Origin: Pedococcus badiiscoriae
GTDB lineage: Bacteria; Actinomycetota; Actinomycetes; Actinomycetales; Dermatophilaceae
NCBI RefSeq assembly: GCF_013408925.1
Contig: NZ_JACCAB010000001.1
Coordinates: forward strand, 2,790,001 to 2,854,000
DNA: 64,000 bases
Direction: 5' to 3'
In this document: piece after piece, positions 19,114-59,665 of the stretch
Layout of the letters: each line of letters starts with the position of its first letter
Numbering within the stretch: the first letter of the stretch is position 1
Translations under genes and position numbers: made by a program
The notes under the pieces: model-generated
Seen by the model: only the letters and a program-made list of their open reading frames with translations
Told to the model about the DNA's origin: nothing
Database searches by the model: none

Positions 19114-19132
19114 GAAGGCAAGGCTTACCTTA
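19114..19132 (-). promoter_or_regulatory. IdeR/DtxR-type iron box upstream of fbpABC
   Basis: Read on the fbpA strand the 19 bases are TAAGGTAAGCCTTGCCTTC, matching the IdeR/DtxR consensus TWAGGTWAGSCTWACCTWA at 17 of 19 positions. It lies 31 bases before the fbpA start, where iron-loaded repressor would block transcription. Control of iron importers by this repressor family is well established in actinobacteria. A second box of equal quality occurs at 57081-57099. Confidence 0.8.
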
Positions 19133-55675: not shown

Positions 55676-56074
55676 GATGAGTCGGTCAGGCGGTCGCGTC
55701 GGTGAGCAATCACCGCCGAGGAACGTCCGGGCTCCACAGGGCAAGGTGGTGGCTAACGGCCACCCGGGGTGACCCGCGGGACAGTGCCACAGAGAACAGA
55801 CCGCCACGGTGGACCACTCGGCCTCGGCCGGGCAGGCACCGCGGTAAGGGTGAAACGGTGGTGTAAGAGACCACCAGCGGTGTGGGTGACCACATCGGCT
55901 AGGTAAACCCCACCTGGAGCAAGCTCAGACAGTGCGCGTTCGAGGGCTGCCCGCCCGAGCGCACGGGTAGAGCGCTGGAGGCAGTCGGCAACGGCTGTCC
56001 TAGATGGATGACCGTCTCCCGCTGGCCGGTAACGACCAGCGGTGACAGAACCCGGCGTATCGACCGACTCATCC
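55676..56074 (+). ncRNA. rnpB: RNase P RNA, class A
   Basis: The catalytic RNA that removes tRNA 5' leaders. Its ends pair exactly (GATGAGTCGGTC with GACCGACTCATC, helix P1). Conserved core segments are present: GAGGAACGTCCGGGCTCCAC near the 5' side, the CAGTGCCACAGAGAACA region, GGTGAAACGGTGGTGTAAGA and the 3' ACAGAACCCGGCGTATCG. The length of about 399 bases is normal for actinobacteria. No protein gene overlaps it. Confidence 0.96.
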
Positions 56075-56138
56075 ACCCACCCGTCCGGAGCGGTCTTCCG
56101 GGGGCGCGACCCGAGGGGAGTCAGTAGCCTCGCCTGTC

Positions 56139-56394: not shown

Positions 56395-57084
56395 ATGCGA
56401 ATCACCCACCTCGGCCACGCCAGCCTGCTCGTCGAGATCGCCGACGCGCGCATCCTGATCGATCCTGGGGGCTGGTCGCCGGGTGCCCACGCCCAGCGCG
56501 GCCTCGACGCCGTGCTGGTGACCCACCAGCACCCTGACCACCTCGACCAGGAGCGCTTTCCCGAGCTCCTTCGGGCCAACCCCGCCGCCGCGGTCTACAC
56601 CGATCCCGACACCGCGACCCTGTTGCGGGACAAGGGGTTCGAGGCCCATGCCCTGGGGCCGGGCGACGCCGTCAGGGTCGGGACGGCGACCGTGACGGGA
56701 GTGGGCGAGCTGCACGCCCTGATCCACGACGACCTACCGCGCATCCACAACACCGGCATGCGGATCAGCGCGGACGCAGAACCCACCTTCTTCCACCCGG
56801 GCGACGCGCTGGACGCCGAGCCGGAGGGGATCGACGTCCTCGCCTTCCCCCTCAACGCGCCGTGGCAGCGCAGCCGGGAGATGACGGGGTTCCTCCGGCG
56901 CCTGGCCGCGCCCCACGCCATCCCGGTCCACGACGCCCTGCTGAGCGACGCCGGCCGCACTCTCTACCTGAACCAGGCGACCTCCCTCGGGTCGAAGGAC
57001 ACCCGGATCCACGACCTCTCCGGCGGCGTGCCCGAGACGTTCGAGGCCGCCCGTCCGGACACTGGACCGAAATTGGACAGTTAG
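56395..57084 (+). CDS. Metallo-beta-lactamase-fold hydrolase (UlaG/L-ascorbate-lactonase-like)
   Basis: A 229-residue MBL-fold protein: MRITHLGHASLLVEIADARI at the start and the metal motif VTHQHPDHLDQER (HxHxDH). FFHPGDALDAEPEGIDVLAF and the final HDALLSD histidine supply the remaining ligands. The family hydrolyses esters, lactones or nucleotides; substrate unknown. ATG 56395 lies seven bases after TACGGT. It ends 24 bases before a small iron-regulated gene but is probably not in its operon, since the promoter lies between them. Confidence 0.9.
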   Translation: MRITHLGHASLLVEIADARILIDPGGWSPGAHAQRGLDAVLVTHQHPDHLDQERFPELLRANPAAAVYTDPDTATLLRDKGFEAHALGPGDAVRVGTATVTGVGELHALIHDDLPRIHNTGMRISADAEPTFFHPGDALDAEPEGIDVLAFPLNAPWQRSREMTGFLRRLAAPHAIPVHDALLSDAGRTLYLNQATSLGSKDTRIHDLSGGVPETFEAARPDTGPKLDS

Positions 57085-57102
57085 GTAAGGCTCACCTACT
57101 CT
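57073..57102 (+). promoter_or_regulatory. Promoter with overlapping IdeR/DtxR-type iron box
   Basis: TTGGAC (57073-57078) and TACTCT (57097-57102) form a promoter with an 18-base spacer, and TACTCT lies exactly six bases before GTG 57109. The 19-base box TTAGGTAAGGCTCACCTAC (57081-57099) matches the IdeR/DtxR consensus at 17 of 19 positions and covers the spacer and the start of the -10 box. Iron-loaded repressor bound here would exclude RNA polymerase. Confidence 0.8.
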
Positions 57103-57108
57103 CCTGGC

Positions 57109-57387
57109 GTGCCCAAGAACCCGAAGGCCGCCAAGGGGACCAAGCTCGCCAAGGCGAAGAAGAAGTGCTGCAAGGACAGGCCGCGCTGCGCGCAGTGTCC
57201 TGTGGTGCTCATGCGCCTGGCGAAGATGGGCTACGCCGAACAGGACCCCGACAAGCCGCGCCGCTACACCGTCGACACGAGCGTGCCCAAGAAGGCCTGG
57301 CTCATCGCGAGGCAGCTGACGCTAGCGTCGGCTCCATGCCGGATCCCGACGCCACACCCCAGATCGCGCTGCGCCTGCGTGGCCTGA
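57109..57387 (+). CDS. Small basic CCx5CxxC protein under an iron box
   Basis: A 92-residue protein starting at GTG. The first 19 residues are nine lysines among small residues (MPKNPKAAKGTKLAKAKKK). A cysteine cluster C20-C21, C27, C30 follows (CCKDRPRCAQCPVV), then YAEQDPDKPRRYTVDTSVPK. Four cysteines in this spacing could hold zinc, iron or an Fe-S cluster. The last 17 codons overlap the ABC gene in another frame. Similar short proteins occur across actinobacteria without known function, from memory. Iron repression is inferred from the box. Confidence 0.75.
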   Translation: MPKNPKAAKGTKLAKAKKKCCKDRPRCAQCPVVLMRLAKMGYAEQDPDKPRRYTVDTSVPKKAWLIARQLTLASAPCRIPTPHPRSRCACVA

Positions 57388-58118
57388 CCAAGCGCTTCGG
57401 TCCGACGACCGCGGTCGACCGCCTCGGCCTCGACGTGCCGCGCGGCTCCTTCTACGGGCTCGTCGGTCCCAACGGTGCGGGCAAGACCACGACCCTGTCG
57501 ATGGCCACCGGGCTGCTGCGGCCCGATGCCGGCAGCGCGCAGGTGCTCGGCACCGACGTGTGGAGCGACCCCGTCGGTGCCAAGTCGCAGATCGGCATCC
57601 TCCCGGACGGGCTGCGGCTGTTCGACCGTCTCACCGGCCAGCAGCTGGTGACGTATGCCGGCCTGCTGCGGGGGATGGACCGGGACCTCGTCGTCGAGCG
57701 CACGGGCGAGCTGCTCGCCGCGCTGGGCCTGACCGACGCCGCCAGCAAGCTCGTCATCGACTACTCCGCGGGCATGACCAAGAAGATCACCCTCGCGTGC
57801 GCGCTGGTCCACGCGCCACGGCTGCTCGTGCTGGACGAGCCGTTCGAGGCCGTGGACCCGGTGTCGGCCCGCACCATCCGTCGCATCCTCGAGGACTTCG
57901 CGGCCAACGGTGGCACCGTGGTGCTCTCGAGCCACGTCATGGACCTCGTCGAGCGGATCTGCACCGACGTGGCGATCATCGCGGCGGGGACGGTCCGGTC
58001 CGCCGGGACCCTCGACGACGTCCGCGCGGGCATGAGCCTCGAGGACCGTTTCCTCGACCTCGTCGGGGGAACGACGGACGTGGAGGGCCTGGCATGGTTG
58101 CGCACCTCCTCCGACTGA
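57336..58118 (+). CDS. ABC transporter ATP-binding protein
   Basis: A 260-residue ATPase. Walker A is GPNGAGKTT, Walker B LLVLDEPFEAVDP, and the switch histidine lies in SSHVMDLVERI. The signature is degenerate, DYSAGMTKKITLACAL in place of LSGGQ, as in several exporter ATPases. ATG 57336 lies inside the small cysteine-protein gene, seven bases after a TAGCGT hexamer (57323-57328), so it may be read from either that promoter or the iron-controlled one. It overlaps the permease gene by 25 bases. Confidence 0.9.
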   Translation: MPDPDATPQIALRLRGLTKRFGPTTAVDRLGLDVPRGSFYGLVGPNGAGKTTTLSMATGLLRPDAGSAQVLGTDVWSDPVGAKSQIGILPDGLRLFDRLTGQQLVTYAGLLRGMDRDLVVERTGELLAALGLTDAASKLVIDYSAGMTKKITLACALVHAPRLLVLDEPFEAVDPVSARTIRRILEDFAANGGTVVLSSHVMDLVERICTDVAIIAAGTVRSAGTLDDVRAGMSLEDRFLDLVGGTTDVEGLAWLRTSSD

Positions 58119-59665
58119 AGCTGCACCTGCTGCGCAACGGCCTGCGCCGCAGCGTCGCGGCCATCGTGGGGATGGTGTTCGGTGTGCTCTACGGGGGCGG
58201 CTTCGTCGTCCTCGTGCTGGCGGGGATGATCGCGCTCCGCGCCCAGGGCGATCTCGGGCTGGCCCGGACGGGCGTCGTCCTGGCGGGGGCGGGGCTCGTC
58301 GCGGGATGGGCACTCCTGCCGATCCTGCTGTTCGGTGTCGACCCGACGCTCGACCCCACCCGGTTCGCCACCTTCGCCGTGAGGGAACGCACGCTGGCCC
58401 TCGGGCTGGTGCTGAGCGCCCTGGTCGGCCTGCCCGGCGTCGCCACGATCCTCCTGGTGCTGGGCACCGTCGTGGCGGGGTCGCGCTCAGTGGCGACCAC
58501 CCTGCTGGCCCTCGTCGGAGGGGTCCTCGGGCTGCTGACCTGTGTCCTGCTCAGCCGGATCGTCACCGCGGCGGCGTCGGCGGTGCTCGGCACGCGTCGT
58601 GGCCGGGACGTCGCAGGCGTGGGTGGGCTGGCCCTGCTCGTCTGTGTCGGCCCGATCGTCGGTGGGCTCAGCGGCGGCGGTCTCGACCGGGCCACCGTGG
58701 ACCGGGTCGCCGAGGTGCTGGCGTGGACGCCTCTCGGCTGGGCGTGGGCGGCCGCTGGTGACGTCTCCCTGGGTCACTGGGGTGCAGGACTGGCGCGGCT
58801 GCTCCTCGCGGCCGTCCTGTGCGTCGTCCTGCTGGTGGTCTGGGAACGGCTGCTCGTGTCGGTCCTGCGCAACCCGCGGTCGACCTCCGGAGACGGCGGC
58901 ACGGTGCGCAGTGGCCTCGGGCTGTTCGGCCGGCTGCCCGGCACGCCGATGGGTGCCATCGCCGCGCGAGCCGGCACCTACTGGGTGCGCGACCCCCGCT
59001 TCAACATGCCGGCGGTGATGACGGTCCTGCTGCCTGCGGGTCTGCTCATCCCGGGCATCGGATCGGGGTCCGACCTGGCGCTGGTCGCCATGCCGCTCGC
59101 CTCGGCATACCTGATCGGGTGGGGACAGCACAACGACGTCGGGTACGACTCGACGGCGTTCTGGATGCACGTCGCCTCGGGCGTCGACGGGGTCAGCGAC
59201 CGGCTGGGGCGGCTGTTCCCCTCGGGGTTGATGGCCGTCGTCTGCGTCCCCACGTATGCCGTGCTGGGACCGGCGCTCGGTGCACCCTGGTGGCTGCTGC
59301 CAGCCACCCTCGGCGTGGGCTGTGCGGTGGCGCTCAACGGCTTCGCGGTGGCGTGCGTGACCAGCGCGGTGAAGCAGTACGCCGTCCCCGCACCGGGGGA
59401 GAACCCCTTCACGAGCCGTCCGGGGGCGGCCGGGGTCACCCTGGGCGTCCAAGCGGTGTGCGGGGCAGCCGTCTTCGCGCTGTCCACCCCCGCACTCGGG
59501 CTGGGCGTCCTGGCCTACCTCGGCATGCGGTGGGCGGCGTGGACGGCGCTGGCGGTCGGCCCGGCCTTGGGGGTGCTGGCGCTGGTCATCGGCACCCGGC
59601 TGGGTGCCGACCTGTTCCGACGCCGCCAGGCGATCCTGCTGCAGGACCTCGTCTCCATGCGCTGA
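58094..59665 (+). CDS. ABC transporter permease
   Basis: A 523-residue membrane subunit with about twelve hydrophobic segments in two halves, joined by a cytoplasmic region with RNPRSTSGDGGTVRSGLGLF and ARAGTYWVRDPRFNMP. It resembles large actinobacterial ABC-2-like exporter permeases. ATG 58094 lies within the ATPase gene and has GGAGG seven bases upstream. Substrate unknown; the upstream iron box raises the possibility of a role in iron or haem homeostasis, which is inference only. Confidence 0.85.
   Translation: MVAHLLRLKLHLLRNGLRRSVAAIVGMVFGVLYGGGFVVLVLAGMIALRAQGDLGLARTGVVLAGAGLVAGWALLPILLFGVDPTLDPTRFATFAVRERTLALGLVLSALVGLPGVATILLVLGTVVAGSRSVATTLLALVGGVLGLLTCVLLSRIVTAAASAVLGTRRGRDVAGVGGLALLVCVGPIVGGLSGGGLDRATVDRVAEVLAWTPLGWAWAAAGDVSLGHWGAGLARLLLAAVLCVVLLVVWERLLVSVLRNPRSTSGDGGTVRSGLGLFGRLPGTPMGAIAARAGTYWVRDPRFNMPAVMTVLLPAGLLIPGIGSGSDLALVAMPLASAYLIGWGQHNDVGYDSTAFWMHVASGVDGVSDRLGRLFPSGLMAVVCVPTYAVLGPALGAPWWLLPATLGVGCAVALNGFAVACVTSAVKQYAVPAPGENPFTSRPGAAGVTLGVQAVCGAAVFALSTPALGLGVLAYLGMRWAAWTALAVGPALGVLALVIGTRLGADLFRRRQAILLQDLVSMR

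Follow-up and report, generated by a model that had tools for sequence, protein, structure and literature searches.

A small four-cysteine protein with a conserved iron box as a candidate partner of non-haem ferritin in actinobacteria

A stretch of 64,000 nucleotides from Pedococcus badiiscoriae (assembly GCF_013408925.1, contig NZ_JACCAB010000001.1, positions 2,790,001 to 2,854,000), referred to below at its full length as the window, contains a gene for a small protein with a CC-x5-C-x2-C cysteine cluster. The gene lies behind an IdeR/DtxR-type iron box and in front of two genes for a putative ATP-binding cassette (ABC) transporter. This arrangement raises the question of what the small protein contributes when iron is scarce, and whether the adjoining transporter takes part. 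Comparison with related genomes makes it probable that the small protein acts together with ferritin, namely as a partner of the haem-free type (Ftn).

Ferritins that accompany the small gene

The ferritin link was well supported by the distribution of the genes in the window's bacterial family (186 genomes), where the small protein was detected in 68 genomes, using a model extended by a divergent subfamily, and a ferritin-family gene in 134. All 68 genomes with the small protein had a ferritin-family gene, versus 66 of the 118 genomes without it (Fisher test 3.7e-13, kinship ignored); in the window's genus these figures were 7 of 7 and 0 of 4, respectively. The window's own genome had one ferritin-family match, which lacked the haem motif and was located far from the window. 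Ferritins were typed by comparison with this ferritin (the Ftn seed) and with a bacterioferritin (Bfr), only the best ferritin being typed for most genomes; 64 of the 68 genomes with the small protein showed an Ftn, versus 20 of the 118 others. Among the 68 positives, three genomes were untyped (G409, G450 and G457) and G362, with four ferritin-family matches, gave a Bfr; among the 66 ferritin-positive genomes without a homologue, 7 genomes were untyped and 3 more gave no type.

A stratified Cochran-Mantel-Haenszel test over the nine genera holding both states gave a z of 6.6, and of 4.8 when genera g1 and g255 were left out. The first run of this test comprised six genera chosen for holding both states, g261, g8 and g263 being added later; the size of g261 (31) was inferred and its unsampled members were counted as lacking Ftn, and G409 was counted as having Ftn (z of 6.4 otherwise). 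One species of genus g255 (G393, locus L194) had no detectable small gene before its Ftn gene, and its sister species have one.

Gene order in the same family assigned a different partner to each type of ferritin. A divergent subfamily of the small protein, with the same cysteines, was encoded directly upstream of ferritin and in the same direction, and the ferritin in these loci was the haem-free Ftn in 14 of 14 cases (loci chosen because their coordinates showed adjacency). Ferritins directly preceded by a Bfd gene were without exception of the haem-containing type, Bfr (28 of 28 loci); the Bfd pattern used for this count missed one locus, L207, whose ferritin was also a Bfr. Of the other ferritin loci among the 109 compared, three contained no ferritin frame, and neither partner was seen at 50 Ftn loci and at 14 Bfr loci. 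The haem-ligand-methionine motif EM[KR][DH][AS]D was present in none of the 14 ferritins linked to the small gene and in all 27 Bfd-linked ferritins (L161 was outside this set), and both pairs were found in one genome, at separate places, in G391, G399 and G401. When NCBIfam models were used, a Bfd-linked ferritin (L162) passed the bacterioferritin cut-off; the ferritin of the window's genome and one from a Thermoleophilia genome were nearest to the non-heme ferritin model, below its cut-off, with a margin of only 31 vs. 23 bits for the window's ferritin. In Thermoleophilia-type loci, ferritin was encoded beside the small gene in 9 of 21 cases (8 divergent and 1 following); all nine of these ferritins were nearer to Ftn than to Bfr, and the Pfam Ferritin domain was confirmed for five.

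Some further arrangements were seen. A loose linkage between the small gene and ferritin, over a distance of 12-17 kb, was present in three genera, g17, g248 and g266 (L170, G026, G379, G380, G485-G488, G490 and G491). In G359 (L163, 1063-1839) both were contained in one open frame, which might represent a natural fusion; the ferritin start is preceded by an AGGAGG resembling a ribosome-binding site, which favours separate starts, so that a fusion is not claimed, and this locus had no iron box. A swap of partners at one spot between G359 and G012, which belong to the same genus, was supposed at first and was abandoned, the identity of the spot not being shown.

The small protein shares with Bfd (PF04324) its small size, the presence of four cysteines, the position of its gene directly upstream of ferritin and an IdeR-type box in the promoter. 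The DtxR-type site upstream of the Bfd genes of the family was the best of its locus in 28 of the 28 loci scanned (L207 replacing L161), with some sites abutting the start codon; for the 14 Ftn-linked small genes this was the case in 11, and 8 sites scored at least as high as the weakest printed site of the matrix described below. The small protein is nevertheless not a Bfd: its cysteines are arranged as CC-x5-C-x2-C and those of Bfd as C-x-C ... C-x2-C, and its partner is the haem-free Ftn instead of the haem-containing Bfr (none of the 14 adjacent ferritins was a Bfr). PF04324 gave no match for the window protein, none among the families listed for members of alignments A2 and A4, and none anywhere in the window's own genome. 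Published work describes Bfd as docking above the Bfr haem and sending electrons from its [2Fe-2S] cluster via the haem to the core (PMC7760384), as binding Bfr and not FtnA (PMC8945002), as regulated by IdeR in Mycobacterium tuberculosis (PMC5218490) and as having a putative DmdR1 site in Streptomyces coelicolor (PMC12161575).

Iron box and promoter of the small gene

The promoter of the small gene was arranged as TTGGAC, 18 bp, TACTCT, 6 bp and the GTG start, and is probably of the leaderless type; the elements described in the first-pass annotation were confirmed. Most of the spacer between the -35 and -10 elements was occupied by the iron box TTAGGTAAGGCTCACCTAC, which also overlaps the -10. 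The box was present where it had been described, with 16 instead of 17 of its 19 positions identical (the same box was scored in L026) to TTAGGTTAGGCTAACCTAA, the DtxR consensus printed for Corynebacterium glutamicum (PMC1382209). A site matrix was built from 31 printed C. glutamicum DtxR sites, whose own scores were 12.6-25.5; TTAGGTAAGGCTCACCTAC scored 23.5 and was the top-scoring site of the window. The motif was found with up to two mismatches at three places only in the 3.39-Mb genome, which encoded one DtxR-family match (PF02742, 4.7e-26). The promoter of the small gene went unrecognized in a simple sigma-70 scan, and its assignment thus rests on conservation. Regarding the other sites, the second-best of the window (19114-19132) preceded minus-strand genes resembling, by eye, a ferric-iron binding lipoprotein and a permease, and a third strong iron box of the genome was located outside the window (G000:C1:3159620-3159638; L006, 1501-1519).

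The conservation of the box was analysed in named genomes using the best 80 of 88 relatives, obtained with search terms that included part of the cysteine motif, from Intrasporangiaceae-type genera, Kribbella, Jiangellaceae, Actinomycetospora, Williamsia, Mycobacterium-type and Thermoleophilia-type lineages. A site was counted if its score was no lower than that of the poorest among the 31 printed DtxR sites and it was located up to 75 bp upstream of the start. Such sites preceded the small gene in 54 of the 80 loci, versus 24 of 4000 random windows of the same loci; at 60 of the 80 loci no other site scored higher than the upstream one. Sites were found in 15 of 16 Intrasporangiaceae-type, 21 of 21 Kribbella-type, 7 of 10 Jiangellaceae, 6 of 6 Actinomycetospora and 2 of 2 Williamsia loci, in the one unplaced metagenome-assembled genome (MAG), in 2 of 21 Thermoleophilia-type and other MAG loci, and in 0 of 3 Mycobacterium-type loci. 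The gap between site and start was 9 bp in 32 of the 54 loci and -1 in the six Actinomycetospora loci, and such gaps are expected of a leaderless start. The box upstream of orthologues and its spacing to the start codon were consequently kept over several families, which supports control of the small gene by iron, as predicted from the sequence; conservation of the box was a check proposed in the first-pass annotation.

Some of the Thermoleophilia-type loci (4 of 21) had a shorter palindrome, TTAGG-N4-CCTAA, at the position of the box. This palindrome occurred 1, 14, 4 and 5 times in Paraconexibacter and three further genomes of the phylum bearing the gene, and the reversed pattern 0, 1, 0 and 0 times, respectively. 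Fifteen palindrome sites were inspected: FTR1 permeases, Peripla_BP_2 binding proteins and ABC ATPases each accompanied two of them, a NicO transporter accompanied one, and a further one adjoined the gene of the small protein studied here, with a Fur-family gene nearby; no iron gene was recognized by eye at the remaining seven. The palindrome, shorter than the 19-bp DtxR box, is likely to be the iron box of these Thermoleophilia-type lineages (L115-L129). The three Mycobacterium-type homologues (L096, L099 and L103) had a shortened C-terminal part and no iron box, and adjoined a gene of the typA cluster (Pfam was run on L096); their control may differ. A siderophore transporter, suspected beside them from gene sizes, was discarded, the neighbours being TypA/BipA and a solute-binding protein.

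The protein family and the neighbouring genes of the window

The cysteine cluster described in the first-pass annotation was confirmed in the window protein and was present in 53 of 53 aligned sequences, retrieved with the search terms mentioned above. Invariant positions among these 53 were K7, C10, C11, R16, C17, C20, P21, V22 and R56 (numbering of a Kribbella member), of which K7, C10, C11, C17, C20 and P21 remained invariant when divergent members were added (33 sequences). With a threshold of E 1e-3, a profile search retrieved 3225 proteins from the database, and none of the 120 listed among them had a Pfam domain; when the 53 members were scanned singly, the best E-values were 0.0036 for Pfam (one member) and 0.078 for NCBIfam. 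The small protein is a member of a family with no Pfam or NCBIfam entry, and no title or abstract opening in the searched literature, which mostly excluded subscription journals, describes it. Its distribution in the phylum was patchy (at least 8 of 296 sampled genomes, the window's own included, using a model that did not yet contain the divergent subfamily). A weak match in G023 (L171) was not a homologue, and the 16 of 58 of the first survey thus contain at least one false match.

The protein is strongly basic (19 K+R vs. 5 D+E in 69 residues). Its AlphaFold model (pLDDT 81.5, pTM 0.62) showed the cysteines followed by a helix, a hairpin and a last helix, and the C-terminal helix-hairpin had a weak, non-significant resemblance to winged helices (TrmB, best E 0.0073, 2 of 53 members; FeoC, E 0.84, 1 of 53; best Foldseek hit, E 0.46, to a winged helix). 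FeoC, a small winged-helix protein with a cysteine cluster, shares the size class, the link to iron and this weak hint of fold, and differs in the order and position of its cysteines. The MutY/EndoIII glycosylases have a [4Fe-4S] loop of the form C-x6-C-x2-C-x5-C, and C-x6-C-x2-C-P is common to both; one homologue (P0098) carries a glycosylase name in a source. However, the small protein is tiny, its alignments have no fourth cysteine after five further residues, and MutY models matched only at E 0.085-0.1, in 2 of 53 members. The Fbp proteins of Bacillus (FbpA, FbpB and FbpC) are small, basic and Fur-controlled, and so resemble the small protein in size, charge and control by iron starvation; we know of no cysteine cluster in them.

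The features of the window are summarized in Table 1. The window copy had 92 residues, and 66 of the 69 homologues from the first search had 56-76; the 18 homologues read out all ended in ARQR followed by a stop. In the DNA alignment the window copy was 2 bp short near this end, and the final arginine and the stop were replaced by 23 codons. The overlap between the small gene and the ABC gene, observed in the first reading of the window, thus exists there as a local accident of this 2-bp difference, relatives stopping earlier. The overlap between the ATPase and permease genes was confirmed.

Ten of the 95 loci examined showed the ABC pair directly beside the small gene, all of them in the window's genus; the 95 loci contain repeats, some genomes being sampled twice, and the 10 loci correspond to six genomes. 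This neighbourhood ruled out the transporter as a part of the unit, and its proposal as an iron-linked partner was not borne out by conservation. The metallo-beta-lactamase-fold hydrolase (MBL) gene, whose end falls inside the iron box, preceded the small gene in many loci of the family and in no Kribbella, Jiangellaceae, Actinomycetospora, Williamsia, Mycobacterium-type or Thermoleophilia-type locus. A seemingly conserved minus-strand open reading frame (55753-56076) was discarded as antisense to the RNase P RNA.

Table 1. Features around the small gene (positions in the window).
Feature	Position	Strand	Basis or remark
RNase P RNA, bacterial class A	55678-56075	+	RF00010, 313 bits
Metallo-beta-lactamase-fold hydrolase (MBL) gene	56395..57084	+	PF13483
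-35-like TTGGAC	57073..57078	+	Read directly; close relatives show TTTGG or TTGG there
IdeR/DtxR-type iron box TTAGGTAAGGCTCACCTAC	57081..57099	+	Consensus match, matrix score, conserved before homologues
-10-like TACTCT, overlaps box	57097..57102	+	Relatives: TACTCT, TACCCT, TACGCT or TATGAT
Small CC-x5-C-x2-C protein, GTG start (57109), probably leaderless	57109..57387	+	Homology extends to 57315, followed by a frame-shifted tail of 23 codons
ABC transporter ATPase, lineage-specific neighbour, outside conserved unit	57336..58118	+	PF00005
ABC permease-like membrane protein, lineage-specific neighbour	58094..59665	+	No Pfam/NCBIfam match up to E 0.1

Proposed role and alternative explanations

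The small protein is apparently made under iron starvation and accompanies Ftn as Bfd accompanies Bfr, a combination best explained if it is the release partner of Ftn. The role initially suggested, in “iron, haem or Fe-S homeostasis”, pointed in the right direction and was sharpened to non-haem ferritin by gene neighbourhood and co-occurrence. On balance, we favour the small protein as an iron-starvation partner of the non-haem ferritin, Bfd-like in action and unrelated to Bfd. Iron-loaded IdeR on the box would block the overlapping -10 of the leaderless promoter; when iron drops, the small protein would be produced and would bind Ftn, and its four cysteines would hold a metal or Fe-S centre that helps the stored ferric core to leave Ftn. 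Four cysteines this close together could hold an Fe-S cluster, and two routes can be envisaged: electrons might be passed to the core, or released iron might be accepted by the small protein. Release by electron transfer is put forward tentatively, at somewhat less than even confidence. The wider proposal, that this undescribed family is a dedicated iron-release partner of non-haem ferritin and an independently evolved second solution beside Bfd, each partner serving a single ferritin type, with iron boxes of the same kind before both genes and the two sometimes present in one genome, seems to us evenly balanced.

Several observations weigh against a role as iron-starvation partner of Ftn. Most homologues of the family (54 of 68, the window's included) were not seen beside ferritin, and no ferritin was found in the Kribbella or Jiangellaceae loci (up to 5 kb on each side). 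Sites of threshold strength were absent before 6 of the 14 ferritin-linked small genes, 3 of 3 Mycobacterium-type genes and 19 of 21 Thermoleophilia-type genes. To our knowledge, the spacing CC-x5-C-x2-C matches no Fe-S motif, searches by fold and by structure yielded neither a solved relative nor a useful structural match, and a protein this basic could also bind nucleic acid.

This last property is the starting point of an unlikely alternative, an iron-sparing regulator whose metal-free form would bind RNA or DNA at low iron and turn down ferritin or iron-using genes, the cysteines sensing iron or an Fe-S cluster. The winged-helix resemblance (TrmB, FeoC and Foldseek) agrees with it, as does the co-occurrence, which also fits a regulator of ferritin; but the fold match was never significant, and a regulator leaves unexplained why Bfd and the small protein, alike in type of box and in gene position, go only with Bfr and only with Ftn, respectively. 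The neighbourhood and co-occurrence would apply equally to an iron chaperone or metal-loading factor that takes Fe(II) from Ftn, or gives it to Ftn, with no electron transfer; according to a 2016 review, no iron chaperone had been reported from prokaryotes (PMC4771812). We consider this quite unlikely, as low-iron expression would be odd for a loading factor and a four-cysteine cluster is probably soft for Fe(II) transport.

Relatedness makes the genomes non-independent, and the same lineages might simply have kept both the protein and Ftn, the neighbourhoods being accidental; in agreement with this, 20 genomes with Ftn showed no detected homologue of the small protein, six of them in genus g261, a count that also tells against the partner role. 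However, the association persisted within genera in the stratified test, and three genera of the family showed direct adjacency, as did, in another orientation, Thermoleophilia-type loci, which makes kinship a very improbable explanation. Least credible is the full first-pass view of the small protein and the ABC pair as one iron or haem transport unit: the genes are closely spaced in the window and read-through from the iron promoter is possible, but the pair is confined to one genus and other genes follow the small gene elsewhere.

Iron exit from haem-free bacterial ferritins is not settled. The 2016 review describes iron release as diverse and as the less well understood process, with Bfd, acting on Bfr, as the first partner to be found (PMC4771812). 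What is new here is a candidate Ftn-specific and apparently iron-controlled partner from a new family, for the other type of ferritin than that served by Bfd. If the proposal is true, the small protein would donate electrons to, accept iron from or regulate a major iron store of soil actinobacteria, and the candidate makes the question of iron release from Ftn directly testable with two small purified proteins.

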